Shown here piece after piece: positions 15,710 through 31,218 of a DNA stretch of 64,000 bases. The first letter of the stretch is position 1. The number at the start of each line of letters is the position of its first letter. Under the pieces are notes generated by a model. It saw nothing but the letters and a program-made list of their open reading frames with translations. It was not told the DNA's origin and ran no database searches. The stretch comes from Gemmatimonadetes bacterium bin94. GTDB lineage: Bacteria; Gemmatimonadota; Gemmatimonadetes; Longimicrobiales; Gaopeijiaceae. A program made the translations under genes and the position numbers. Location: assembly GCA_002238865.1 (NCBI GenBank), contig MPNE01000006.1, positions 62,001-126,000 on the forward strand, read 5' to 3'.

Positions 15710-18601
15710 TCAGTTTCCGTCCACGATCGCCTCATGGACGATGGGCCGGAGCAGCCTGTCGACGGGCGCCCCGCCAAACGGCTGGAGCTGGGTCCAGGCG
15801 AAGGCGATGATGTCCTCGGCAGGATCGATCCAGAAATAGGTGTTTGCCACCCCGGACCACCAGTATACGCCGTCGTCTTCTCCGGCCGGAACCGCGAATC
15901 CCAGCCCGAAGCCCATGCCGTCAAGGCCACGCATAATAGGAACGAGATCGTCTGGCAAGTGGTTGCGTGTCATCAAGCGGACCGTCTCCGGCTGGAGAAG
16001 CCTCACGCCGCCGGTCTCCCCCTCGCCGAGGAGCATGCGGCAGAAGCGCAGGTAGTCGGCCGCGGACGACGTCAGGCCCCCACCGCCGGAAAGCCAGCCT
16101 GGGGGCCGCGCAAAGGGGTCGCCCGATGCTGGAGCGGCGGTGGCGAGGCCGTCCCGGCTCATCCGGTACATGGCCGCGAAGCGGTCCAGCTTGCCGGTCG
16201 CCACGTGAAAGGCGGTGTCGTCCATCCCCAGGGGATCAAAGATGCGCTCGCGGAAGAAACGGTCGAGGGTCTGCCCGGAAACGACCTCGACGACTCGGCC
16301 GAGCACGTCGGTGGACATGCTGTAGTTCCAACGCGCGCCCGGGTCGTCGACGAGGGGCAGAGACGCGATCAGGTCGACCCTCTCTTCCAGGTCCCGTCCC
16401 TGCATGCCCGGCCCGTAGAGCGCGCGGTTGTACATGGAATCGACCGGGCTGTTGCCGAAGACGCCGTAGGTCAGCCCGGACGTATGGGTCAGCAGGTCCC
16501 GTACCAGGATCGGGCGCGTGGGTGGACGCGTGGCGCCCTCTTCGTAGACCTCGGTGCCGGCGAATTCGGGGATTACGCTCGACAGTTCGTCATCGAGCGA
16601 CAGCAGCCCGTCCTCGACGAGCATCATCGCGGCGACGCTCGTGACGGGCTTGGTCATGGAGTAGATGCGGAAGATGTCGTTCGGCTCGAGGGGGTCCTCG
16701 CCGAGTACCCGCCACCCGTGCGCATCCCAGTGCACGATCTCGCCGCGGCGCGCCACCAGCGTCATGATGCCGGCCGTCCGGTCCGCATCGAGGAACTGTT
16801 GCATCGTGGGCCCGATGCGCGCCAGGACCTCGCTGGAGAGGCCGACGTCCTCGGGGGTGGCCGTCGTGAGGGTGGCGGTTTGAGCTTCGCGCCCCGGCTC
16901 CGCGTCCAGCGCGAAGGTCGAGACCCGGGGGGCGCCTCCGCCCGAGGTGAGCCCGGCCGCGACGGACACGTACTGCCGGCCGTTCACCGCGTACGTCACC
17001 GGCGAGCCGGCGCCACGGCCCACCTCGGCAGACCACAGCTCCTGGCCCGTGCGGGCATCCAGAGCGGCCAGGCGGGTCCCGGTGCCCCAGAAGACGAGGT
17101 TGCCGGCGCTGGTTACCGTGCCACCGTGGCCGCCGGTTGCCTCCACGCGCCAGACTTCGCGGTTCTCCGCCGGGTCCCACGCCAGAAGGACGTTGGCCGG
17201 CCCCTCCAGTGGCGGGCGCTGGGGCCGCTGGCCACGGGTGCCCCGAACCGTCCCTGTGTTCCAGCGACCCTCCTGGTAGTCGTAGGAACCTGTCATCTCG
17301 TAGTAGTAGTTGTTGTTCGTGGCCGGCAGGTACAGGAGTCCCGTACCGGGATTCCAGGACATCGTGTGCCAGTTGTGAGCCCCCCGGGGCCCGGGTGCCA
17401 GGTACACCCCCTTGCCGGTCATGCCGTAGCGCGCTTCAGGCGTCTCGACGGGGCGGCCGGTCTCGGGGTCGACCTCCGAAGCCCACGTCAGGTCGTCGGC
17501 GAAGGGTTCGGCCGAGATGAGCTCCCCGGTGATCCTGTCGACGACGTAGAAGAAGCCGTTCTTGGGTGCCTGCACGATGACCTGCCGCTCCCGCCCGCCG
17601 ATATCCAGGTCGAGGAGCATGAGCGGTTGTGTGGCCGTGTAGTCCCAGTCGTCCCCGGGGGTGGTCTGGTAGTGCCATTCGATCGCACCGTCGCCGGGGT
17701 CAAGCGCCAGAATGGACGACAGGTAGAGGTTGTCGCCCCCTCCCGGGCTGCGATGGTCGCGGTTCCAGGGCGACCCGTTGCCGGTGCCGATGTAGAGCAG
17801 TTCGGCGGCATCGTCGTACGCCATCGCGTCCCAAACGGTCCCGCCGCCGCCCGCGATCCACCACTCGCCGGTCCACGTTTCCGCCGCTCTGCGCATCGCG
17901 TCGCTCTCGAAGCCGAGGGCGGGGTTCCCGGGCACCGTGTGGGTTCGCCAGATCTGCTCTCCGGTTGCGAGGCCGTAGGCGGTCACATAGCCGCGCACGC
18001 CGTACTCGGCGCCCCCGTTTCCGATGATGACCGCGTCGCCGGCGATCCGGGGCGCGCCGGTCACCGTGTAGTCGGAGCCGGGTGGGGTTGTCTGGGCGGT
18101 CCATCGCACCGATCCGTCGGCCCGGTCGAGGGCCACCAGGCGACCGTCCAGGAGGCCCGCGTAGACCAGGTCGCCGTGAACCGCGACGCCCCGGTTGACA
18201 TCGCCGCAGCAGGCGCGAGGCCCTCCGTGTTCCTCGTCGGGGATTGCCGGATCCCAGCGCCAGATCTCTTCGCCGGTGGCCGCATCCAGGGCGAAGACGA
18301 AGCTGAGGGCACCGGTTCCGTAGAGCACCCCGTCGACGATCAGGGGGGTGGTCTCCAGCCGCGCGCCCGTCTTGGGGATCTCCCAGCGCCAGGCGAGGCC
18401 GAGGCGGTCGACGTTGTCCGCGTTGATCTGGTCGAGGGGGCTGTACCGGGTCTCGGCGGCATCGCGGCCGTGGTGTAGCCACCCGGACTCCGTGGACGTG
18501 GCGCCGGCCTGGTACGCTGCGGCGGGCGTCGCAATGGCTGCAAGTGCGAGGATGGACAGAGCGTAGGGAGCGCGGAGTAGAGTGTTGCGAAGGGGCGTCA
18601 T
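15710..18601 (-). CDS. PQQ-dependent dehydrogenase fused to a beta-lactamase-like serine hydrolase
   Basis: Secreted fusion of 963 residues, starting MTPLRNTLLRAP with a signal peptide ending near AAAYQAG. Residues 36-565 form a quinoprotein alcohol dehydrogenase propeller. It has adjacent cysteines C131-C132 (ACCGDVNRG), GGDNLY with the likely catalytic Asp at 290, GDDWDY, and repeated W-docking motifs (TGEEIWRW, TGQELWSAE). Residues 585-963 form a class C beta-lactamase/esterase-type domain with S648-M-T-K651, NYS around residue 760 and WSG at 915-917. The usual C-terminal cytochrome c domain of quinohaemoprotein dehydrogenases is absent. The frame is continuous across the junction. A longer frame exists upstream of 18601 but lacks a signal-peptide rationale. 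It is divergent from a cytochrome c gene. Confidence 0.88.
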   Translation of the reverse strand: MTPLRNTLLRAPYALSILALAAIATPAAAYQAGATSTESGWLHHGRDAAETRYSPLDQINADNVDRLGLAWRWEIPKTGARLETTPLIVDGVLYGTGALSFVFALDAATGEEIWRWDPAIPDEEHGGPRACCGDVNRGVAVHGDLVYAGLLDGRLVALDRADGSVRWTAQTTPPGSDYTVTGAPRIAGDAVIIGNGGAEYGVRGYVTAYGLATGEQIWRTHTVPGNPALGFESDAMRRAAETWTGEWWIAGGGGTVWDAMAYDDAAELLYIGTGNGSPWNRDHRSPGGGDNLYLSSILALDPGDGAIEWHYQTTPGDDWDYTATQPLMLLDLDIGGRERQVIVQAPKNGFFYVVDRITGELISAEPFADDLTWASEVDPETGRPVETPEARYGMTGKGVYLAPGPRGAHNWHTMSWNPGTGLLYLPATNNNYYYEMTGSYDYQEGRWNTGTVRGTRGQRPQRPPLEGPANVLLAWDPAENREVWRVEATGGHGGTVTSAGNLVFWGTGTRLAALDARTGQELWSAEVGRGAGSPVTYAVNGRQYVSVAAGLTSGGGAPRVSTFALDAEPGREAQTATLTTATPEDVGLSSEVLARIGPTMQQFLDADRTAGIMTLVARRGEIVHWDAHGWRVLGEDPLEPNDIFRIYSMTKPVTSVAAMMLVEDGLLSLDDELSSVIPEFAGTEVYEEGATRPPTRPILVRDLLTHTSGLTYGVFGNSPVDSMYNRALYGPGMQGRDLEERVDLIASLPLVDDPGARWNYSMSTDVLGRVVEVVSGQTLDRFFRERIFDPLGMDDTAFHVATGKLDRFAAMYRMSRDGLATAAPASGDPFARPPGWLSGGGGLTSSAADYLRFCRMLLGEGETGGVRLLQPETVRLMTRNHLPDDLVPIMRGLDGMGFGLGFAVPAGEDDGVYWWSGVANTYFWIDPAEDIIAFAWTQLQPFGGAPVDRLLRPIVHEAIVDGN

Positions 18602-18720
18602 TCTGGTTTCCGGCTGGGGTTGGACCCGCAAGGTTCGCGTTTGACCGACAAGATGCATGCGGCTGGCCGTTCCCGCGACACCGGCGCCCGCCCGCAGGTG
18701 CGGCCCCGTTCCGTTGTGGG

Positions 18721-18728
18721 TAGCTTTG
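18721..18728 (+). promoter_or_regulatory. Candidate -10 element giving an almost leaderless transcript
   Basis: TAGCTTTG lies six bases before the ATG at 18735. It matches the TANCTTTG form seen elsewhere in the window, but no convincing -35 is present. Transcription from it would begin close to the start codon. Confidence 0.3.
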
Positions 18729-18734
18729 CAAGCC

Positions 18735-19265
18735 ATGAAATCGAATGGCCGAAGCTGCGTTGCGATCCTTTTTCTCCTGGGTTGCACTGCCGACGCTCCC
18801 GAACCCCCTCCCTTCGCGGCCGTGGCGGACGGTCGGCAGCTCATGGTCTCGGTGATCGAACCCGCGGCCGAGGTCTACTGGGATGCCGTCGGGGTAATCA
18901 TGGACGAGGAAGGCACGCACGAGATCGAGCCCCGGACGCCGGAGGAGTGGGAAGCCGTCGTGAACGCCGCCTACGTGCTTGCCGAGTCCGGCAATCTCCT
19001 GTTGATGGAGGATCGCGCCCAGGGCAGGGGACACTGGATCGCCATGTCCCGGTCGATGAGCGAAGTGGGGCAGCGTGCGATCGAGGCCGCCGAGGCGGAA
19101 GACCCCCAGGCCGTGTTCGACATGGGTGCCGAGCTGTACTTCGTCTGCACCGGGTGCCACACGGTATACGCGACCGGGACGTTGCGACCGAGCGATCTGC
19201 CGGACTCGGCCGTAACGGGCTCGCCCGGCACCGGCGCCTCCGACCCCCGCGCGCCCGTCCCGTGA
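18735..19265 (+). CDS. Monohaem cytochrome c lipoprotein
   Basis: Predicted periplasm-facing lipoprotein of 176 residues. The signal MKSNGRSCVAILFLLGC gives a lipobox with the acylated cysteine at 17. A helical region follows (VYWDAVGVIMDEEG, then WEAVVNAAYVLAESGNLLL). One haem c site CTGCH sits near the C-terminus (C138, C141, H142). A C-terminal haem site in a helical protein resembles cytochrome c-prime-like families, but I cannot name the family. It is divergent from the PQQ fusion and overlaps the following membrane gene by GTGA. A role in taking electrons from the PQQ enzyme is an inference from position only. Start chosen at the signal-bearing ATG; an upstream in-frame start exists at 18657. 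Confidence 0.82.
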   Translation: MKSNGRSCVAILFLLGCTADAPEPPPFAAVADGRQLMVSVIEPAAEVYWDAVGVIMDEEGTHEIEPRTPEEWEAVVNAAYVLAESGNLLLMEDRAQGRGHWIAMSRSMSEVGQRAIEAAEAEDPQAVFDMGAELYFVCTGCHTVYATGTLRPSDLPDSAVTGSPGTGASDPRAPVP

Positions 19266-20519: not shown

Positions 20520-20714
20520 GTGGCCTGCTGGTACGCGCTCGGCTGGCGGGGTCCCGGCGGGATGGTCCAGGTGGACTACGCGGACATCAACGGGGACGGG
20601 GATGTGGACATCCGGGACGGGTCCTCGTCGACGCGTTCCGCAGCTCCGCCGTGGTGTCGTTGTGCCGCCATCCTCATCGCCGCCAACCAGAGGTGCCCGG
20701 AATCCCGCGGCTGA
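20520..20714 (+). other. Possible remnant of a calcium-binding (EF-hand/dockerin-like) protein end
   Basis: In the 224-bp gap between convergent genes, a plus-strand frame reads GENDIDVACWYALGW and then ADINGDGDVDIRDG, a canonical DxNxDGxxxxxD calcium loop. The frame runs to 20714, overlapping the 3' end of the LRR gene on the other strand. There is no proper start, signal or ribosome site. It looks like a decayed C-terminal fragment rather than a functioning gene. Confidence 0.3.
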
Positions 20715-23700
20715 AGAGCACCTCGAGATCCGGCGGCGTGCGCGCTCCCCCGCCAGCGTCCGCGGCCACCTCGATAGCGGACGCCGCCGGCAGGATGGCC
20801 CGCACCTGCCCAGTGCGCATGTCGCGCAGGATGGCCATGGGCAGGTCGGAATCGCCGTCGAGGGCGGCTTCACCGTCGGGGCCGGACAGGGCAATGCCGG
20901 CAAGGTTCTCCCAACCGGGGCGCACCGGCAGCGCGAAGGCGAAGGACGAGCCAACCGATTCCTCCGACAGCGCCCGAGGCATGGCGAAGCGTACCGAGAA
21001 CAGCTCGCCGCCGCCCGCGTCCCGTCCGGTCACCGCATAGTCCCCGCCGGAGTCCGGCAGCGCGGCTGGTGCCTTCGCCACGAAAGCGGGGTTGAGGAAC
21101 GGGTTGCCCTCCGCGTCGATGCCGCCCCACAGGAGCAGCGATGTTGTCGCGGCCACGTCCTTGGCCGCCGAGGGCTTGCCCTCATCGCGCAAGCGGTGAC
21201 GGAGCGCGTTGGTGAAGTGATAGTCGCTGACCCAATCCGGGCCGCAGTAGCTCATGAGATCCTTGTGCAGCGACGGCGGCACCAGGCGTCCGCTGCTGAA
21301 ATCGTATCCCCAGGAGCCGGTCGAGCCATCATCATACGGGTAAAGCGGATCCCCAGACGTTCCGCACGGCGCGTGCCCCAGGCCCATGTTGTGACCCAGT
21401 TCGTGCGCGATTATGTGGGAATCCAGTCGCGAGAAGCTCGACCGGCCGCGGGTGTATGCCACTCCCGCGGGTCCGGTCACGGTCCCCGACATCAAGCCCG
21501 CGTAATGCCCCGCGCCGCCCTCCAGGACCCGGATCGCCTCGGTCTGGGCCAGCAGGTCGTAAGCGTTGTTGCTCGTGCTTTGCACGGGCGCGTGCGCCGT
21601 CACATCGATAACGCCCACCGGCAGGAGGGTCCGGGTGTCCTCGAGCATGTCGTGGCCCTCCGGGTCGGCCTCCATGCCTTCCGCCGCCTCCACGACCGCC
21701 CGGTCGGGGTCGGCGCTCCAGATAAAGGGGATCGCCGTCAGTTGCAGGACGGGCAGCTCCCGCACCGCCACCGTCATGCGGCCCGCCTCCGGGATCCGCT
21801 TGGGCACGCCAAGCGCGGGATCCAGGGTGCCGTCGGGGTCGACCTCGATCACCATCTCCAAGCCGGGGCGCACGATCCGGCCGGGTATTTCCGTGTTCGC
21901 GGATTTCGAAAGATCCCCCTCGTCGAACTCCGTCGGGATGGGGTTCGAGTTCGCGGGGACGTCCACCACGTGGCGCTCGACCCCGCCCAGGTAGAACCGC
22001 GCCCGCACGGCGGGCATCCCTTCGGACGTCTCTCGGGCCGCAGTGACGAACACGCGCAGCAAGGCATCCTCGCCCGCCACCAGGGGGACCGGGTGCGCGC
22101 GCGATTGCACGGCCTGGACGAGGTACGCCGCCAGCCCGTTGCCGCAAAGCGCGATCCGTCGATCGAGGATGTTCACAAGCCAAGTCTGGAAGCCAGGCTC
22201 CACAGGTACGCACAGATCCGTGCCCGCGGCCTGAAGCGACTCCAGGCGCAGGTCCTTCAGCCCCGCCGGGATGGCTCCCGCCAGTTCGCGGTTTTGCGCC
22301 AACTCCAACGCCGTCAGGGCCGCCAGCCCACCGAACTCCGGCGGCACGGGGCCCGTCAACTCGTTTCCGCTCAGGTAGAGGGCTCGGAGCCTGGAAAGAC
22401 GGCCCAGTCGGCGCGGGATCCCGCCCGTCAACTCGTTCCCGCTCAAGTCGAGGTCCCGGAGGTTGGAAAGGCCGCCGAGCTCCCACGGAATCGCGCCCGA
22501 AAGGCCGTTCCCGGACAGCACCAGCTGTTCCAGGTTGGAGAGGCCGCCCAGCTCCCGCGGAATCGCGCCCGAAAGGCCGTTCCAGCCCAGGTGCAGCACT
22601 CTCAGGTTGGAGAGGCCGCCCAGCTCCTGCGGGATCGTTCCCGAAAGGCCGTTCCGGTGGAGTCCCAGCTGTTCCAGGTTGGAGAGGCCGCCCAGCTCCC
22701 GCGGAATCGCGCCCGAAAGGTCGTTCCAGCCCAGTTCCAGCACATTCAGGTTGGAGAGGCCGCCCAGCTCCCGTGGAATCGCGCCCGAAAGGCCGTTCCC
22801 AAACAGCACCAGCCGTTCCAGGTTGGAGAGGCCGCCCAGCTCCCGCGGGATCAAACCGGACAATTCGTTCCCGGCCAGAACGAGGATTCTCAGGTTGGGG
22901 AGGCCGTCCAGCTCCTGCGGGATACCGCCCGAAAGGTCGTTCCCGTACAGGTTCAGCCATTCCAGCCTGGAAAGGCCGCCCAGTTCCTGCGGAATCAGGC
23001 CGGACAGCCCATTGGATGCGAGATGCAATCCGACTACTCGGTCCTGGCCGTCCACTTCCACCCCGTGCCAATGCCGGAGCTGCGCACCGCTGAGCCAGTT
23101 GTCGTTGTTGATCCAGTTGGACCCGCCGGTCGCCTCGTACAGCGCCGTCAATATGTCGCGGTCCGTCAACGTTGCGCACTCGGTTCCCGTCCCATCGAGC
23201 GAACCGATGCCGCCCAGCCACGCTCGGAAGGCGTCGTCCGCCGGCGCGCACAACTCCGTGCCGCCGTAATGGAACTCATCGAGGTAGAGATCCGTTAGCG
23301 AGAGCGGCAGGCGGCCGACGAGCGCATTGCCGTCAACGCGGAGCTTCGCTAGCCGCTCGAGCCCGCCAACGTCCCCCGGCAGGCCGCCCGCGAGCCCATT
23401 GTCGCTGAGGTCAAGGGCCGTGACACGGCCTAGCCGATCCGTCCGCACGCCGTGCCACTGTTCCAATGCCGGGCCGCCGAGCCAGCCGTCGGACGCGGCC
23501 CACCGGTCCCCGTTCGTCAGCTCAAACAGGTTGCTCAGCACGGCCTGGTCAGAAGCGTTGCAGAACGGGCCGCTCCAAAGTGCCATGCCATCCAGCCACT
23601 CGAGGGCTTCGGAGGTACCGGGCAAGCACACTCTTGTCGCCCCGCACGCCCAATTGAAGATCTTGACGGGTAACTTCATCATACTCGGCGGGACCACGCC

Positions 23701-24990
23701 CCGAATGTCGTTCCCGTTGAGGACCACCTCTACCAAGTTGACGAGACCGCCCAGTTCCGGAGGAATCGTGCCCGTCAACTTGTTCCTGCCGAGGTACAGC
23801 CATTTCAGGTTGGCGAGGTCGCCCAGCTCCCCCGGGATCCCGCCCGAAAGACCGTTTCCGGTCAGGTGCAGCGAATGCAAGTTGGAGAGGCGGCCCAGTT
23901 CTGGAGGAATCCCGCCCGAAAGGCCGTTTGCGGACAGGCTCAGGAGTCCCAGATTGGAGAGGCCCGCAAGTGCCCGAGGGATCGCGCCCGAAAGGCCGTT
24001 GTAGGACAGGCGCAGCGCTTCCAGCCTGGCGAGGCCGCCCAGCTCTGGAGGAATCTCGCCCGAAAGACCGTTTCCGGCCAAGTTCAGATGTATCAGGTTG
24101 GAGAGGCCTCCCAGCGCCCGAGGGATCGCGCCCGAAAGGTCGTTCCGGTGGAGCTCCAACCGTTCCAGATTGGCGAGGCCGCCCAGTTCCAGCGGGATCG
24201 TTCCCGAAAGGCCGTTCCCGCCGAGGTTGATTGAGAAAACCCTGCCGGACTCATCCGTCCGCACCCCGTACCAGTCGTCCAACGGCGCGTCGGTCAGCCA
24301 GTTGTCGTTGTTGACCCAGTTCGGCCCGTCCGTGGCGTTATGGAGCGCGACCAGCGCGAACCGGTCTGGATTCGTTACCGCAACGTCTGCGGTCCCGGTC
24401 GCAACTCCTGCGGTTGCGGTAATCGAGGCCGAGCCCTCGCCGACGCCGCGGACCAGACCTGATGCGTCCACCATCGCCACCGAGATGTTGTCGGAGGCCC
24501 AGGACAGTTCGGGCTCAGCCACCACATGGCCGTTCGCGTCCCTTGCCTCCGGCACGAGACGTAGCGTGTCGCCCAACGGCACTGCGGCGGAGGCCGGGAG
24601 CGTGATGTGCTCAACCTCCTGGGCCACCCATGCCCTGGCGCTTCCCGACGCCGACCCGGAAGATGCGGTGATCGTGGCTGACCCGTTCGCAATCGCCGTC
24701 ACCAGTCCCTGGCCATCGACCGTCGCGACCTCCGGGGCTTCGCTCGCCCAGGTCACCGCCGCTCCGGCCACCGGCTGTCCCGACTGGTCCCGCACGTCGG
24801 CGGACAACTGCGCCGTGTCCCCCAGCGCGGTCAGCTCGATTGTTGCCGGAGTGACCCACACCGCCGAGGGTGCGGGCGTCGCGGTTGCGGGCGGTTCCGT
24901 GGATCCGTCGCCGCACGCGAGGATCGAGAGCGCCATCCCCGGCACAAGCGCGGCGGCAGCCTTGATCGCGAGCTCGCGGGCGGTCGACAT
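20674..24990 (-). CDS. Large LRR lipoprotein with a C-terminal metzincin-type peptidase domain
   Basis: Predicted exported lipoprotein of 1438 residues (signal ends ALSILAC). Order: two Big_2-type Ig domains, then three leucine-rich modules each opened by a cap of the type ALYEATGGSNWINNDNWL. These hold about 8, 2 and 11 plant-type repeats (LxxLxLxxNxLSGxIPxELGGL). A beta-rich region follows, then a metallopeptidase with H1196-E-L-G-H-N-M-G-L-G-H1206 and the Met-turn DLMSYC, diagnostic of metzincins. The start MSTAREL is set by AAGGAGGAG at 24997-25005. It is the last gene of a six-gene cluster. The LRR modules probably bind a protein or glycan ligand, and the peptidase may act on neighbours at the surface. 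Substrate unknown. Confidence 0.87.
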   Translation of the reverse strand: MSTARELAIKAAAALVPGMALSILACGDGSTEPPATATPAPSAVWVTPATIELTALGDTAQLSADVRDQSGQPVAGAAVTWASEAPEVATVDGQGLVTAIANGSATITASSGSASGSARAWVAQEVEHITLPASAAVPLGDTLRLVPEARDANGHVVAEPELSWASDNISVAMVDASGLVRGVGEGSASITATAGVATGTADVAVTNPDRFALVALHNATDGPNWVNNDNWLTDAPLDDWYGVRTDESGRVFSINLGGNGLSGTIPLELGGLANLERLELHRNDLSGAIPRALGGLSNLIHLNLAGNGLSGEIPPELGGLARLEALRLSYNGLSGAIPRALAGLSNLGLLSLSANGLSGGIPPELGRLSNLHSLHLTGNGLSGGIPGELGDLANLKWLYLGRNKLTGTIPPELGGLVNLVEVVLNGNDIRGVVPPSMMKLPVKIFNWACGATRVCLPGTSEALEWLDGMALWSGPFCNASDQAVLSNLFELTNGDRWAASDGWLGGPALEQWHGVRTDRLGRVTALDLSDNGLAGGLPGDVGGLERLAKLRVDGNALVGRLPLSLTDLYLDEFHYGGTELCAPADDAFRAWLGGIGSLDGTGTECATLTDRDILTALYEATGGSNWINNDNWLSGAQLRHWHGVEVDGQDRVVGLHLASNGLSGLIPQELGGLSRLEWLNLYGNDLSGGIPQELDGLPNLRILVLAGNELSGLIPRELGGLSNLERLVLFGNGLSGAIPRELGGLSNLNVLELGWNDLSGAIPRELGGLSNLEQLGLHRNGLSGTIPQELGGLSNLRVLHLGWNGLSGAIPRELGGLSNLEQLVLSGNGLSGAIPWELGGLSNLRDLDLSGNELTGGIPRRLGRLSRLRALYLSGNELTGPVPPEFGGLAALTALELAQNRELAGAIPAGLKDLRLESLQAAGTDLCVPVEPGFQTWLVNILDRRIALCGNGLAAYLVQAVQSRAHPVPLVAGEDALLRVFVTAARETSEGMPAVRARFYLGGVERHVVDVPANSNPIPTEFDEGDLSKSANTEIPGRIVRPGLEMVIEVDPDGTLDPALGVPKRIPEAGRMTVAVRELPVLQLTAIPFIWSADPDRAVVEAAEGMEADPEGHDMLEDTRTLLPVGVIDVTAHAPVQSTSNNAYDLLAQTEAIRVLEGGAGHYAGLMSGTVTGPAGVAYTRGRSSFSRLDSHIIAHELGHNMGLGHAPCGTSGDPLYPYDDGSTGSWGYDFSSGRLVPPSLHKDLMSYCGPDWVSDYHFTNALRHRLRDEGKPSAAKDVAATTSLLLWGGIDAEGNPFLNPAFVAKAPAALPDSGGDYAVTGRDAGGGELFSVRFAMPRALSEESVGSSFAFALPVRPGWENLAGIALSGPDGEAALDGDSDLPMAILRDMRTGQVRAILPAASAIEVAADAGGGARTPPDLEVLFSRGIPGTSGWRR
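22260..23040 (-). repeat. Tandem 72-bp LRR-coding repeats, block of about 11
   Basis: Near-identical 72-bp units each encode a 24-residue leucine-rich repeat with core NGLSGAIPRELGGLSN. DNA identity between neighbouring units is high, which favours expansion and contraction by recombination. It is coding DNA, not a CRISPR array. Confidence 0.9.
23690..24245 (-). repeat. Tandem 72-bp LRR-coding repeats, second block of about 8
   Basis: Same 72-bp periodicity and consensus as the block at 22260-23040, in the N-terminal LRR module of the same gene. The two blocks share enough sequence to recombine with one another. Confidence 0.85.
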
Positions 24991-25004
24991 GGATTTCTCC
25001 TCCT

Positions 25005-25844
25005 TCAACGCCCCTCCTGCAGCCGGTTGACAAAGTTCCTCAGGCAGTACTGCCCGATCCCGTTGAGCGCCCCTTCCTCACGTTCTTCCATGATGTGCAT
25101 CACGAACATCAGCACGGCGGACTGGAGCAGGGCGAGCAGCGTGGTGTAGAACGCCACGCCGAGGTCGCCGGTCACCTGTTCCATCATTTCGGGACCGATT
25201 GACGCCTCGGTGAAGCTGGCGCCGGCGAACAGCACGCCGGCCGTCCGCATCGCGAACGCGATCCCCAGCACGGTTCCAATGAAGCCCAGGGTCGGGATCA
25301 GCCAGATCACGTATCTGAGCATGTTGTATCGCATCTCGATCTCGTGCTGGTACAGGTCGATCGAGAGTTCGATCGTCGAGGTGACCTGACCGATCGATCC
25401 ACTGTTGCGGAACTGGAGGAGGGCGCCGGACAGCAGACGCTGCAACAGGTGGCGGCTGGCTGGATCGGACTGGACCACGCGGTCGTAGATCGGCGTCATG
25501 TCCTGCTGGCGCAGGACCGTTCGGTCGTCCTCGGGCAACAACCCGAGGTGTATCTGTTCCCGTTCCCGAAGGCCCGCCAGGTGCCGCACGAGCAGTTCGC
25601 CGCTGGCCATGCAGAATGCGAGCCACATCACGTTCTGGATCGTGAACGGATACGGGAAGATCCGGGTGTTCCTGTCGAGGAGCAGCTCCGCACCGACGCT
25701 GTCGTCACCGGCGGGGAATACCCAGGAGAGCACGCCAATAAGGGCGATGCCGATCAGGAGGGAACCAAAGAGCGCGACCGCGCGGAAGGGGATCTGCTCG
25801 TCCCGTGCCGGTCGCCGGGACACGTCCTGCTCGACCTTCACCAT
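25005..25844 (-). CDS. MotA/TolQ/ExbB-like proton channel subunit
   Basis: A 279-residue inner-membrane protein of the MotA/TolQ/ExbB class, which forms the ring around a MotB/TolR/ExbD partner and converts ion flow into motion. Predicted helices lie near residues 21-43, 68-88, 176-199 and 227-250. The last two carry the family signatures GFIGTVLGIAFAM and LGVAFYTTLLALLQSAV, where small and Thr/Ser residues line the channel. A cytoplasmic loop of about 85 residues separates helices 2 and 3. It starts eight bases after the pseudokinase-LRR gene, and its stop lies within the ribosome site of the LRR peptidase gene. No ExbD/TolR gene is adjacent. The likely partner is the anchored VWA protein at 30208-31218. 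Confidence 0.85.
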   Translation of the reverse strand: MVKVEQDVSRRPARDEQIPFRAVALFGSLLIGIALIGVLSWVFPAGDDSVGAELLLDRNTRIFPYPFTIQNVMWLAFCMASGELLVRHLAGLREREQIHLGLLPEDDRTVLRQQDMTPIYDRVVQSDPASRHLLQRLLSGALLQFRNSGSIGQVTSTIELSIDLYQHEIEMRYNMLRYVIWLIPTLGFIGTVLGIAFAMRTAGVLFAGASFTEASIGPEMMEQVTGDLGVAFYTTLLALLQSAVLMFVMHIMEEREEGALNGIGQYCLRNFVNRLQEGR

Positions 25845-25851
25845 GGGCAGC

Positions 25852-27819
25852 TCACCGACCGTCGCCCCGCTGTTGTCCCAGACACCTGGGCAGACTCACG
25901 CCGTCCAGCTGGGGGTTGATGTTGGCCTCGAAACGGCTCAGCGCCTCCGGTATGCACCCCGAAAGGCGGTTGTAGTTCAGAGACAGGCGCCGGAGGCTGC
26001 CAAGGTTGCCCAGTTCCGGCGGGATGCTCCCCGAGAGCTGGTTGCGCTCCAGAGACAACACCTCGAGCCGTTGGAGCCTGCCCAGTTCGGGTGGTATGCG
26101 TCCGGCGACGCGCGTCCGGGACAGGTTCAGGCGGCGGAGGTTGTCCAGGTTGCCCAGTTCTCGTGGAATGCTCCCGGTGAGCGGGTTGCCCTGCAGGTAC
26201 AGATCCTCCAACCGGGACAGGGAACCCAGCTCGGCCGGTATCTCGCCCGACAGACGGTTGCCCTGCAAATAGAGGAACTCCAGCTCGCCCAGAGCCCCCA
26301 GTTCTGCGGGAATCCCACCCGGTATCTGATTGTCGGCCAGATTCAGGTACTGCATCCGGCGCAGGAGCCCGAGGGTTTCGGGAAGCGCGCCGCCGAGACC
26401 CTTGCCGGGCAGGTCGATCCCCGTTACCGCGCCGCCCTCCAACTGCACGCCGGTCCACGATGTCCAGTTCCGACTGCGGCTCCAGTCCAGCAGGCCCAAC
26501 GATCCCGCAAGGTCGTCGGCCACGGCCAGAAGTACTTCGCTGTCTCCCTGCGCCTGCAGGAATCGGCGCCGGGCCTCGGCGAGGCGCTCCTCTTCGGACT
26601 GACGCTCGGCCTCCAGACGAGCTTCTTCCGCGAGACGCGCCTCCTCTTCCAACCGCTCCTCTTCGGCCTGGCGCTCGGCCTCCAGACGCGCTTCTTCCGC
26701 CAGTCGCGCCTCCTCCTCCAACCGGGCCTCCTCGGCCTGGCGCTCGGCTTGGCGTTCGGCTTCCAGGCGGGCTTCTTCCGCCAGACGCGCTTCTTCCGCC
26801 AGTCGGGCTTCCTCGGCCAGACGTTCCTCTTCCAACCGCTCCGCTTCCAGGCGTTGCTCCTCGAGCTGGCGTTCGAAGTCGAGCCGCTGCTGCTCGGCGC
26901 GCTGGCGGGCTTCGGCAAACTGCTGCTCCTGTGCGCGCTGCCGTTCATCGGCCAGCCGCTGGGCCTCGGTCTGGCGCTCGGCTTCGAGACGCTCCGCTTC
27001 CGCCTGTTCCTCGGCTTCCCGGCCCACGGCGAAGAGCGCCGCGAGGCTTTCGCGGTCGAGATAGCCGGTCTCTTCGATCCCCTGGGCGGCTTGCCACCGT
27101 CGCAGTCCCGCCCGGGCATCCGGCTCCAGCACGCCGTCCGTCTCCCCGGCGTAGTGTCCTTCGGCCGCGAGACCCTTCTCGACCACCTCGATCGTCTCGG
27201 AACTCAATTCCAGCCGGGCCTCCGTCGCAGCGGCAAGCTGCTCCGGCGTGAGGGCGCTGTTGCGTGACACCGACACCAACACGGTTACGCCGAGCGCGAC
27301 GACCGCGATCCCCGCCGCGTAGAAGATGCGCCGCCGGCCGACCCGGACAGCCGGGGCGGCCGGCGTCCGCGCGGCGACGGGCTCGGATCGTCCTGCGGCT
27401 TCCCCGGACAATATCGCCCGCCAACCGGACGCCGCGATCTCCTCCTCGAGGTCGCGGCCCGGGACGTGCTCGGTGACCAGATACGCGGTCCCGTTGGCTT
27501 TGGCGACGCGGTGTACTTTTGCGAACTGGGGGTGATCCACCCTTGCCAGAATGCGCGTTCCCGCCAGAAACTGCTCCAGGCCGGTGGCGTAGGCCTCGGC
27601 CGACTCCTCCGACCTGGGCCCCACTGTTCCGTCCGGACGGCGCGAGCCCGAGTCCCGCGGAAGGTACTCCGTGATCAGGACGCTGCGATCGATGGCAAGT
27701 TCCAGGGCCAGATACGTGGTCGAGACGCCGTCACCCGCCAATTCGCGCTCGATGCGGTATTCGTCCAGAAGACGGCTTCCCGTTGGCAGGGCATCCGGGG
27801 AGGGCGTGTAGCTCATCAC
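25852..27819 (-). CDS. Membrane protein: degenerate kinase N-lobe, peptidoglycan-binding-like domain, coiled coil and LRRs
   Basis: A 655-residue protein. Residues 20-125 match only the N-lobe of serine/threonine kinases (EYRIERELAGDG, EYLPRD, AYLVTEHVPGRDL). The glycine loop is degraded, the VAIK lysine is T50 (VLIT), and HRD and DFG are absent, so catalysis is not expected. A membrane helix lies near 165-185. Residues 205-262 resemble peptidoglycan_binding_1 (EVVEKGLAAEGHYAGETDG). A charged coiled coil, rich in EAERQAEEERLEEEARLAEE-type heptads, spans about 265-440. About seven leucine-rich repeats end the protein. The N-lobe would be cytoplasmic and the rest periplasmic. The start overlaps the upstream SH3 gene. 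It may link the cytoplasm to the cell wall for the neighbouring MotA-like channel; this is inference. Confidence 0.82.
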   Translation of the reverse strand: MMSYTPSPDALPTGSRLLDEYRIERELAGDGVSTTYLALELAIDRSVLITEYLPRDSGSRRPDGTVGPRSEESAEAYATGLEQFLAGTRILARVDHPQFAKVHRVAKANGTAYLVTEHVPGRDLEEEIAASGWRAILSGEAAGRSEPVAARTPAAPAVRVGRRRIFYAAGIAVVALGVTVLVSVSRNSALTPEQLAAATEARLELSSETIEVVEKGLAAEGHYAGETDGVLEPDARAGLRRWQAAQGIEETGYLDRESLAALFAVGREAEEQAEAERLEAERQTEAQRLADERQRAQEQQFAEARQRAEQQRLDFERQLEEQRLEAERLEEERLAEEARLAEEARLAEEARLEAERQAERQAEEARLEEEARLAEEARLEAERQAEEERLEEEARLAEEARLEAERQSEEERLAEARRRFLQAQGDSEVLLAVADDLAGSLGLLDWSRSRNWTSWTGVQLEGGAVTGIDLPGKGLGGALPETLGLLRRMQYLNLADNQIPGGIPAELGALGELEFLYLQGNRLSGEIPAELGSLSRLEDLYLQGNPLTGSIPRELGNLDNLRRLNLSRTRVAGRIPPELGRLQRLEVLSLERNQLSGSIPPELGNLGSLRRLSLNYNRLSGCIPEALSRFEANINPQLDGVSLPRCLGQQRGDGR

Positions 27820-28880
27820 CAGCTCCAGGCGACTCCGAACTGGGTTCGGGAATCGGCGCGGCCGACGAAGAGGCGCGCGGGCCGCTCGGAACCCGATGAT
27901 TGCAGCGGCATCGAGAGTGCTGACATCCGCGACAGTTCCTCGACCTCACCCATCTTCTGCGACGCCATGACCCATTGCGCCAACCCCCAGACACCGAGTA
28001 AGCCCCCGGCGCCCATGATCCACTGCCTCCCGGTCTCGGCATCCTCCCGCCGATTGACGGCGGACTTGTATTCCAATGCGTCGGCGAAGTCTTCGGGGTC
28101 CGGGACCGCGAAGTACGGTATCCACTCGACGGCTGCGAACGCACCTCCCGCCAGAAGGGCCCCCCAGACGAGCTTGCGTCTCCCGAGCGAGCGGCTCAGC
28201 GTGGCTTCCGCATACTGCCGGTCGAGCGGCGGGGTCGTCGCCTCGGGGAATTCGCGCTCCAGCGCGGCCATCTTGCTCCAACCAAGGACGTACCGACCGA
28301 TTCCGTAGGCGGCAAGCGCGGCGCCCCCGATGAGGGCCACCTTCTTGACGGTCCCGGCGGTCTCCTCCCTGTCCTGGGCGGCCTGGTATGCGGCGTCATC
28401 CTCGTACGACTCGCGATCCTCGACCTCGAAGAACAGCGAGACGGACAACTGTGCGGTTGCCGCCAGTCCCGCGCCCTGGACCGCCCTGTTGAGTCCCGCC
28501 GACCGATTCGCCTTCGCGGCCGCGTGTTGCTCCTCGACGCCGGGAATGGCCATTCCGCCGCCGGGCGCTGCCGGTGACGACTGCTGCATCCCCACCACGG
28601 CCACTTCGCTGGCCAGGACGTACCCGATCAGATTCTCCTGGCCCGGCGGGCCGGGCACGGATACGGCGTAGTAGGGGCCGGACTCGCCGACCCATTCCAG
28701 CACCGCGCCGGAGGGCAGCGTGGCGATGACCGGGCTCGTGCTGTTGGGATCGAGCCGCAGGACGGTCTCGTTGGCGACGACCACCTGTTGGGCCGCGGCC
28801 GGGGCCGCGGCAGTGCCAGCGGCCAGGAATGATGTCCAGATGATGGAATGAAGCAGGACATTGCCAGTGTTCATCTTCAT
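27816..28880 (-). CDS. Secreted or membrane protein with N-terminal SH3-type domain, copy B
   Basis: A 354-residue protein. The start MKMNTG at 28880 has GGAGGT eight to nine bases upstream. A signal peptide ends near APAAAQQ. Residues of the form VLRLDPNSTSPVIATLPSG through YVLASEVAVV make a bacterial SH3-like domain (SH3b family). Several hydrophobic segments follow (VALIGGAALAAYGIGRYVLG, LVWGALLAGGAFAAVEW), and the C-terminus is TQFGVAWSW. It is a paralogue of the next upstream gene and overlaps the pseudokinase-LRR start. SH3b domains often bind cell-wall peptides, consistent with an envelope role. Exact function unknown. Confidence 0.78.
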   Translation of the reverse strand: MKMNTGNVLLHSIIWTSFLAAGTAAAPAAAQQVVVANETVLRLDPNSTSPVIATLPSGAVLEWVGESGPYYAVSVPGPPGQENLIGYVLASEVAVVGMQQSSPAAPGGGMAIPGVEEQHAAAKANRSAGLNRAVQGAGLAATAQLSVSLFFEVEDRESYEDDAAYQAAQDREETAGTVKKVALIGGAALAAYGIGRYVLGWSKMAALEREFPEATTPPLDRQYAEATLSRSLGRRKLVWGALLAGGAFAAVEWIPYFAVPDPEDFADALEYKSAVNRREDAETGRQWIMGAGGLLGVWGLAQWVMASQKMGEVEELSRMSALSMPLQSSGSERPARLFVGRADSRTQFGVAWSW

Positions 28881-28969
28881 TTTCGTACACCTCCACGATT
28901 TCTTCTGACAACGGTTGCGGTCACTCCCACCTCTCGCCCCCTTCCGCTTTGGCACGCCGCGCCAGGCCC

Positions 28970-30079
28970 TCACCAGCTCCAGCTGACCCCGAACTGCGTG
29001 CGCGGACCCCGGCGGTTCGCGAACAGTTCGACGGGCGCCTCGGCAACGAAGCTTCCGACCGGCACGGAGAGCGACGACATCCTGGCGGTCGCCTCGATCC
29101 CGGACATCCTTCTGGCTCCAAGCACCCACTGCGTCGTGCCCCAGGCCCCCAGCCCGATGCCCAATATGTAGGCTCCCGACCTGGCGGTCTCGGCCCGGTC
29201 CCTCCGGTCCTGTGCGGCCTGAAAGTCTTCCGCATTGTCGAAGTCCGCCGCGTCAGGTACTCCCAGGTACGGAACCCACTCGACCGCACCGTACGCGACG
29301 AGCGGGAGAAAGACGGCCCAAAAGACCTTTTTCCTTCCGGACGAACGCATCCTGAACGCGTCGCCGTACTGCACCTGCAGCGACGGGCCCGCCGTTCTCG
29401 GAAGCTCGAGCTCCAGGCTTCGCATGCTGCTCCACCCCATGGTGATCTGCGCCACCCCCCAGGCCCCCAATGCCCCGCCCAAAGCCATGCCCACGCTCCT
29501 GCCCGTCTCGGCCGCGCTGCGCCGGTCCAGGGCGCTCTGGTAGGATTCGGCGTCGTCATAGTCTTCGGCGACCGGAACCTGTAGCGGAGGCACAAACTCG
29601 AGTGCGGCGTACGAACTCCCGACGAAGACAAGACCCCAGATGACCTTGCTCACACCCGATGAACGACGTGCTCGCGCGTCCTCGTACTGCTCCTGCAGGC
29701 TCGGGATGCCGATCACGGGGCCAGGCCCCGTTGCCGGTATCGACCCCACGGGTGGCGCGATGCCCGGCACCGCGCCCACCAGCTCCACCTCGCTGGCCAG
29801 GACGTAGCCGATCACCTCTTCCTGGCTGGGATCCCCGATGATCGACACGGCATACCAGGCGCCCGATTCGCCGGTGTACTCCAACAGCGTTCCCGAAGCC
29901 ATTTCCACAATGATCGGGCTCGTTGCGTTGGGATCCAGCCTGATCGCCGTCCCGTCGGCGACGATCCGCACCTGCTGCGCACCGGCATCGGCCGGTACGA
30001 TTGCGGCGACGGCAAGCAGGATCAAGACCACGGCCTTCATCACGACCGCAATGGGTTGGCCTGGGAAGTGTTCAGCCAC
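28970..30079 (-). CDS. Secreted or membrane protein with N-terminal SH3-type domain, copy A
   Basis: A 369-residue paralogue of the gene at 27816-28880, with the same order: signal or membrane segment (MKAVVLILLAVAAIVPADAG), SH3b-like domain (IRLDPNATSPIIVEMASG to GYVLASEVELVG), then repeated units of two hydrophobic segments joined by acidic DYDDAESYQSALDRRSAAE-type stretches. The C-terminus TQFGVSWSW nearly equals the paralogue's. I chose GTG at 30079 because AAGGAG lies eight bases before it; an ATG at 30040 would also keep the signal. An 89-bp gap separates it from copy B. The shared unusual C-terminus suggests a conserved contact or membrane insertion signal. Confidence 0.76.
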   Translation of the reverse strand: MAEHFPGQPIAVVMKAVVLILLAVAAIVPADAGAQQVRIVADGTAIRLDPNATSPIIVEMASGTLLEYTGESGAWYAVSIIGDPSQEEVIGYVLASEVELVGAVPGIAPPVGSIPATGPGPVIGIPSLQEQYEDARARRSSGVSKVIWGLVFVGSSYAALEFVPPLQVPVAEDYDDAESYQSALDRRSAAETGRSVGMALGGALGAWGVAQITMGWSSMRSLELELPRTAGPSLQVQYGDAFRMRSSGRKKVFWAVFLPLVAYGAVEWVPYLGVPDAADFDNAEDFQAAQDRRDRAETARSGAYILGIGLGAWGTTQWVLGARRMSGIEATARMSSLSVPVGSFVAEAPVELFANRRGPRTQFGVSWSW

Positions 30080-30207
30080 TGTCTTTTCTCCTTGCGGGTT
30101 CAAACGCGTCGAAGTCGTCCGTGCCGATGACCGGCGCGAACCTCCCCGTTGCGGGATTGGAGCGTGAACGTGCGTCCGAGACCATCATGGCACCCCATTG
30201 ATCGGCC

Positions 30208-31218
30208 TCACAACAGGGAGAGCAGGAGATTGACCGTCAGCGAGCCCCCCACGTCGCGCACGAACTGGCCCCGGCCCGCGTTGGCCACGGATTGCAGGAA
30301 ACCCTCGACCTGAGGATCGACAAACCCCTGGGAGTTGATGTAGACGGTCGAGACCCGGTGTCCCGGCAGCCGCGCGATCGCGGTAGCCGTGGCGATGGTC
30401 CGGTTCACCTCCTCCGGGTAGGCGGGGTGGTCGGTCACGAGCACGATGACCCGTCTCTCGGACTCGGGCCGCCACGGCATGCGTGCCGCCTCGGTCAGCG
30501 CTGCAAGGAACGCCTCGGGCGGGTCGTTGTTGCCGCCGCGGCCGAGGCCCATTCGCACGGAAAGGTTGTTCACGAATCCCCTGAACGCGGCCCGGTTCAG
30601 GGTGGGGCCAGACACCCTCCGCAGGGAGAACGTCGTCGTGGGCCTCTCCCATTGGCGGTCTCCGAACGCGATCAGACCGATCCCGAAGCTGGGCGCCATC
30701 CGGCTCAGCAGGACGCTCAGCTGTCCGACTTCGGCCTTCAGCGCAGCGACCTGCGGCCCCATGCTGCTGGTGACGTCCAGCGCGATCACCAGGTCAAGGT
30801 GGGGCAACTGGTAGGTCGCGGTGGGCGGCACCGGGCCGGGGTCGGGCTGGGGGCACGGGACCGGGGCGGGAACGGCAGGGCACACGGGGCACGTCACGGG
30901 CTCGGGGTCGGCCGGCGGCGTCTCGGGAACGGCGGCGACGACCAGGGCCGGGGTCGGGGTCGGCACGGGAGTGGGGACCGCGGGGCACGCGACCGGTGTT
31001 GGCAGCGCGGGGTAGGTCGGCAACACGGGGCAAACGATCGGTTCCGGGCACGGAACTGCTGCCAGCATCGGGATCGGCTCTGCGGGTTCGGAGCGCGAAG
31101 CGTCGGCGATGAGCGGAAAGATGATGATCGAGATCAGAATGAACGCGCCGAGCGCCGAGGCGAACAGGTCAAGCGACGCCATGCCGAAAAGCGTCAACTC
31201 CCGATTTCGTCGTTTCAT
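30208..31218 (-). CDS. Membrane-anchored periplasmic VWA-domain protein, MotB/ExbD-like N-terminus
   Basis: A 336-residue protein. The N-terminus has a short basic tail then one helix (about residues 17-38) preceded by SLD, so an aspartate (D17) sits at the membrane entry as in MotB/ExbD-type stator subunits. Residues 45-130 are a rigid Pro-rich linker with about eight Cys-Pro motifs. A von Willebrand A domain follows with the metal-site motif D148-V-T-S-S152 and VTDHPAYPEE. It is the first gene of the minus-strand cluster that also encodes the MotA-like channel. Working idea: channel partner whose periplasmic part is a VWA adhesion domain instead of OmpA. Ribosome site weak; start taken at the ATG giving the MKRRNREL basic tail. 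Confidence 0.8.
   Translation of the reverse strand: MKRRNRELTLFGMASLDLFASALGAFILISIIIFPLIADASRSEPAEPIPMLAAVPCPEPIVCPVLPTYPALPTPVACPAVPTPVPTPTPALVVAAVPETPPADPEPVTCPVCPAVPAPVPCPQPDPGPVPPTATYQLPHLDLVIALDVTSSMGPQVAALKAEVGQLSVLLSRMAPSFGIGLIAFGDRQWERPTTTFSLRRVSGPTLNRAAFRGFVNNLSVRMGLGRGGNNDPPEAFLAALTEAARMPWRPESERRVIVLVTDHPAYPEEVNRTIATATAIARLPGHRVSTVYINSQGFVDPQVEGFLQSVANAGRGQFVRDVGGSLTVNLLLSLL

Follow-up and report, generated by a model that had tools for sequence, protein, structure and literature searches.

A TolQ-type channel linked to a one-helix VWA protein in Gemmatimonadota, a candidate ion-driven motor carrying the remnant of a kinase

The closest described relatives of the system considered here are the motors predicted from a TolQ homologue and TPH-vWA proteins, encoded without TolR or ExbD (Mol Biol Evol 2025; PMC12204202). 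According to the section of that paper devoted to them, the family occurs mainly in Proteobacteria and Verrucomicrobia, and two heterologous vWA genes are the predominant, though not universal, arrangement; the same section makes no mention of kinase, PP2C or FHA proteins. An extracytoplasmic VWA domain is also known from PpkA, where it is regarded as the sensor of a membrane-spanning kinase (PMC3224232).

The locus analysed here lies in a window of 64,000 nucleotides (C80:62001-126000) from the 4.42-Mb genome of Gemmatimonadetes bacterium bin94. A sponge or coral origin of the bacterium is a guess prompted by isolate names. As far as that section describes the TPH-vWA motors (PMC12204202), the locus shares with them a vWA protein with a single N-terminal Asp-bearing helix (here D17), tight linkage to a tolQ homologue without tolR or exbD (here in 20/20 loci) and a conserved threonine ring of the pore (here T191/T235, presumptively placed in the pore). 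It differs from the predominant form in having one vWA gene instead of two, and from the family as a whole in its phylum, its SH3b and peptidoglycan-binding/LRR partners and its decaying kinase. A preliminary description of the locus had spoken of an undescribed machine; since TolQ plus TPH-vWA without TolR/ExbD was reported in 2025, its central idea had already been published as a prediction, for which the present locus offers independent support from a new phylum, namely that VWA proteins can be the moving part of TolQ-type motors (PMC12204202). All six ORFs of the preliminary description are present where it placed them, and each scores as a genuine coding gene:

25005..25844, minus strand: MotA/TolQ/ExbB-type channel subunit, 'FPYPFTIQN' family; 279 aa, putative pore threonines T191 and T235 (T234); from Pfam MotA_ExbB and the structural model
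30208..31218, minus strand: one-helix TPH-VWA protein; 336 aa, D17 at the helix entry, Pro/Cys-rich linker, VWA domain; from Pfam VWA
25852..27819, minus strand: pseudokinase N-lobe–TM–peptidoglycan-binding-like–coiled coil–LRR protein; 655 aa, N-lobe at residues ~1-135, TM at 165-183; from Pfam and the PpkA match
28970..30040, minus strand: SH3b protein 1; signal peptide, bacterial SH3 domain, two helical-hairpin repeats; from the AlphaFold model
27816..28880, minus strand: SH3b protein 2; paralogue, 42% identical to SH3b protein 1
20674..24990, minus strand: LRR / Big_2 / metzincin (Peptidase M66-like) lipoprotein; from Pfam; a neighbour outside the conserved machine

The SH3b genes probably start at ATG 28880 and ATG 30040, as against the earlier 29129 and 30103, and the LRR-metzincin gene probably at ATG 24990. 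With these starts most of the overlaps from which a single transcript had been deduced disappear, and the only tight junctions in the cluster are a 4-bp overlap (27816-27819) and a 7-bp gap (25844/25852).

The channel subunit is a divergent protein of the TolQ/ExbB/ZorA type, and its Pfam match to MotA_ExbB (2.8e-9) agrees with its first assignment as MotA/TolQ/ExbB-like. Because a search of solved structures by sequence with channel profiles gave no match, the fold was examined through an AlphaFold model (pLDDT 79.8). ExbB, TolQ and MotA chains fill the Foldseek list, with probabilities near 1.00 and E-values of only 3e-3 to 6e-2, and in a second structure comparison the top 21 rows are ExbB, TolQ or ZorA without exception. 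On a scale where Z values of about 13 are possible between unrelated helical bundles, the model matches TolQ (8vlw) with Z 14.4 and rmsd 3.1 over 206 residues, and ZorA with Z 10.5-11.5 (8vvn, Z 11.5). T191 and T235 are invariant in 30 aligned channels, the genome's own ExbBs among them (a 31st sequence, L100, ends before T235); we take these to be the positions of the ExbB/TolQ pore threonines, and on that analogy they would line the channel pore. The protein carries an additional N-terminal hydrophobic helix (residues 22-40), a difference from TolQR/ExbBD, and its C-terminus is residue 279. Among 249 genomes sampled across the phylum, the channel family is limited to two genera, plus two weaker, different matches.

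The VWA protein is, as first described, a one-helix protein with an aspartate at the membrane entry, although its Pfam VWA score of 24.1 bits is barely above the cut-off of 23.8. Behind a positively charged N-terminus lies a single hydrophobic helix (residues 19-37) with D17 at its entry, followed by a Pro/Cys-rich linker and the VWA domain. The stretch LDLFASALGAFILI (L16-I29, including D17) is invariant in 18 sequences, as are the MIDAS-like residues D148-x-T150-x-S152 and D263, in which a Thr stands instead of the first Ser of DxSxS. D17 is invariant within the genus, and in nine highly diverse partners invariance at the N-terminus is confined to R6, F11, D17, G24, A25 and F26; among VWA-bearing partners the Asp at the helix entry is invariant. 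In a subgroup of loci (L094, L097, L099 and L164) the partner helix has no Asp, indicating that the channel family can pair with a helix that probably does not relay ions. The pair resembles TolQR/ExbBD in channel fold, pore threonines and Asp-bearing partner helix, but its partner carries a VWA domain instead of the ExbD/TolR domain, and a TolA/TonB homologue was not recognised in the window cluster. Unlike MotAB, the partner has no OmpA-like peptidoglycan-binding domain, its Pfam matches being of the VWA type only. A viral origin was considered and rejected, as the VWA protein has no relative in viral contigs.

All 20 assembled Gemmatimonadota loci (from 19 genomes, the window's locus counted) keep the channel gene linked to the VWA gene, which strongly supports the two proteins as partners; in no assembled locus are the two genes scattered, so that the linkage expected in related genomes was found. 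They are convergent neighbours in 16 of these loci, same-strand neighbours in one (G033), and in the remaining three (the window, G006 and G021) lie on one strand, 4-5 kb apart, with SH3b and LRR genes between them. Linkage kept across three arrangements supports a functional pair better than an operon would, and a whole-cluster operon, like the single transcript claimed for the six genes, is rejected as a property of the system by the prevailing convergent orientation. VWA genes lacking a channel are confined to contig ends (G009, G016) and to a divergent copy on a contig of 5 kb (G024); contig ends excepted, genomes without the channel are also without the VWA gene and vice versa. Every Gemmatimonadota locus has one vWA gene, and pairs are restricted to tier-2 Gammaproteobacteria, for instance L159 and L160. 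In 11/11 distant loci where the contig allows the test, a TPH-type partner is likewise encoded beside the channel or within a few genes of it. No match to ExbD/TolR (PF02472) was found in the cluster by Pfam search. Of the three ExbD genes in the genome, which lie on C79 and at C80:48.5 kb, each stands beside another ExbB gene, and an ExbD elsewhere in the genome was rejected as the channel's partner for this reason. The preliminary description was therefore right to see no ExbD/TolR adjoining the channel and to propose the VWA protein as its stator-type partner; a case of this channel paired with a separate ExbD was not found.

Four families recur in the Gemmatimonadota loci: the channel, the VWA protein, an SH3b protein and a peptidoglycan-binding/coiled-coil/LRR protein, so that the six-gene machine first envisaged contracts to these four. 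The SH3b assignment is backed by the AlphaFold model of SH3b protein 1, in which strands at 23-88 match bacterial SH3 structures and helices follow at 115-149, 164-212, 221-255 and 270-323, although the Pfam SH3b score is below the cut-off; given the low overall confidence of the model (pLDDT 62), only the SH3 part is relied on. The second SH3b gene is a duplication found in the window and not in most relatives, probably also carried by G006. The LRR protein matches PG_binding_1 (5e-8, above the cut-off) and LRR_1 (9e-24) in Pfam. The LRR-metzincin gene is indeed present at the locus, but its inclusion in the machine is rejected: it is no conserved member of the cluster, at least 14 relatives of its C-terminal 445 residues occur in its own genome, and 8-44 copies of the family occur in every same-genus genome tested, including the motor-less G003, G011 and G015. 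These lipoproteins are hugely expanded across the genus, for example in G003 and G013, including genomes that lack the motor.

The first ~135 residues of the LRR protein have PpkA as their best PDB match (4e-16) and can be aligned with the kinase of a gammaproteobacterial locus (L149); the catalytic Lys is replaced by Thr and the glycine loop is degenerate, which bears out the earlier identification of a dead kinase N-lobe joined to peptidoglycan-binding-like and LRR domains. The G021 orthologue retains a full-length pseudokinase with VLITEYLP and HLDIRPGN motifs and GFG replacing DFG; in the window and G006 the C-lobe is missing and only the N-lobe is left, and in the other genomes examined the domain is absent. 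Neither PP2C nor FHA was found in the window cluster.

When about 85,000 species genomes were scanned, channels of about 40% identity turned up in Bacteroidetes and in several Proteobacteria; searches at class and phylum level added more. The clusters of L149 (Gammaproteobacteria) and L092/L093 (Bacteroidetes) combine the channel and a TPH-VWA protein with a Ser/Thr kinase, PP2C, one or more FHA proteins and one or more protease/FHA membrane proteins. In L096 (Rhodocyclaceae), kinase, PP2C and FHA accompany a TPH partner too short for, and unalignable with, the VWA domain; PP2C/FHA adjoin the channel–partner pair in L151 and L153, and L154/L155 (Bacteroidota) carry channel, TPH, FHA, PP2C and kinases. 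More distant gammaproteobacterial loci (L156-L163) encode the channel, most of them along with two TPH proteins, which bear VWA domains in the locus scanned for them (L159). These loci fit the published description of TolQ plus TPH-vWA, as far as it is given there (PMC12204202), the Idiomarina family of that paper being equated with our tier-2 loci by description and not by sequence. In the channel tree, whose base has long branches and of which only the internal placement is used, the Gemmatimonadota group is nested in the FHA/PP2C/kinase-linked clade, next to L148 (98/95). This nesting, the full pseudokinase of G021 and the N-lobe of the window together indicate that the window system is a de-kinased variant of a probably phospho-regulated VWA motor. 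The simplest history would be that this lineage lost the phosphorylation module while its kinase decayed where it stood, and the order of loss, drawn from few genomes, would run from kinase to pseudokinase to N-lobe to none, a natural experiment on the role of the kinase. A literature search, weak evidence as it barely covered subscription journals and preprints, returned no description of a kinase/PP2C/FHA-coupled TolQ-vWA system.

The regulatory genes recall the PpkA-PppA-Fha pathway of the T6SS, with which the system shares a PpkA-like kinase domain, PP2C and FHA in the distant clusters and an extracytoplasmic VWA domain, the last a suggestive parallel. It differs from that pathway in that the VWA domain sits on the motor helix rather than on the kinase, and in that the window kinase is dead (Lys to Thr, C-lobe missing) and has no in-cluster PP2C or FHA. 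By inspection, none of the genes called around the distant loci stood out as T6SS genes.

We therefore favour, with a probability of about 0.72, the reading that the window encodes a variant form of the TolQ + TPH-vWA motors predicted in 2025, one that was ancestrally controlled by a kinase. By analogy with TolQ/ExbB, the channel protein would form a pentameric ion-conducting wheel and the VWA protein its axle, in a putative 5:2 assembly with the single helix in the pore and D17 facing the threonine ring. Ion flow might turn or shift the VWA dimer, moving the Pro/Cys-rich linker and VWA domain in the periplasm, where the VWA head may bind an envelope ligand; the conserved signal-peptide-bearing SH3b protein and the membrane-anchored peptidoglycan-binding/coiled-coil/LRR protein could couple the motor to the wall or outer surface. 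Ancestrally, a Ser/Thr kinase resembling PpkA would have exercised control together with a PP2C phosphatase and FHA proteins; the cluster of this lineage would since have lost PP2C and FHA, and an LRR-fused kinase would have become first a pseudokinase and then an N-lobe. What is added to the 2025 prediction is a regulatory link, as the pair travels with PpkA-like kinase, PP2C and FHA proteins in several lineages. A broader proposal, to which we would give slightly less than even odds, is that ion-driven channel + TPH-vWA motors are widespread 5:2 machines gated by phosphorylation through an in-cluster Ser/Thr kinase, PP2C and FHA, and that the window records how, in Gemmatimonadota, such a motor evolved into an envelope machine without a kinase, pseudokinase intermediates having survived. 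If true, bacteria would switch an ion motor on and off through threonine phosphorylation.

An envelope sensor that generates no force, in which the channel/VWA pair and the pseudokinase-LRR receptor relay periplasmic binding to the cytoplasm in the manner of PpkA, is unlikely. The PpkA-like N-lobe, the membrane-spanning PpkA with its VWA domain outside the cytoplasm (PMC3224232) and the kinase, PP2C and FHA genes of the distant clusters all speak for it, whereas the window-lineage cluster has lost catalytic kinase, PP2C and FHA, and with them the classical output, while the pore Asp and Thr are still invariant. Rather less plausible is a force transducer for adhesion or gliding, with the motor dragging a VWA/LRR surface complex comparable to the CglB-type VWA adhesins of Myxococcus gliding. 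VWA and LRR are binding modules, the Pro-rich stretch of the VWA protein has a weak match to GltJ (E 0.008) that is probably compositional, and gliding is proposed, in the section on the related VWA protein class, as one possible role (PMC12204202); yet gliding machinery was not recognised in the cluster, the VWA protein is predicted to be tethered to the inner membrane, and the hosts are known from metagenome assemblies. A Zorya-kind anti-phage stator, a motor that senses envelope perturbation and triggers an effector, is very improbable despite the ZorA-like channel fold and ion-motor logic, a weak ZorA2 match (2.7e-4) and the patchy presence of the module in differing neighbourhoods within the genus, because TolQ matches the channel better than ZorA, the channel stops short of the long ZorA tail, the partner has VWA and neither an OmpA-like nor a ZorB-type periplasmic domain, no conserved nuclease or helicase effector was recognised in the cluster, and profiles of ZorB, ZorC, ZorD and ZorE gave no cluster match, those of ZorA2/ZorA3 matching only the membrane part of the channel, and weakly, so that the Zorya likeness first noted does not extend to membership, which was rejected.

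Several further observations were made in passing. Within one genus the module stands in many differing neighbourhoods (flanks of L051-L069), is absent from G003, G011 and G015 and occurs twice in G012, which suggests that the channel–VWA module is mobile. A contig labelled Gammaproteobacteria (L088, JAPPJO010000066.1) has the same cluster and flanks as the Gemmatimonadota genome G033 and is probably misbinned. In G024, of another genus in the same family, a divergent TPH-VWA protein is followed by an FHA protein (L070:3935-5090), which may be left over from the kinase-linked form or related to it. In the Rhodocyclaceae MAG a contractile-injection/phage tube-like protein, recognised by eye, lies directly upstream of the kinase-linked cluster (L096:354-812), maybe by coincidence. 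In the window itself, the translation of a long ORF at 15710-18844 (minus strand) reads as an unusual fusion, with quinoprotein (PQQ-dehydrogenase-like) repeats ahead of a class C beta-lactamase-like domain.
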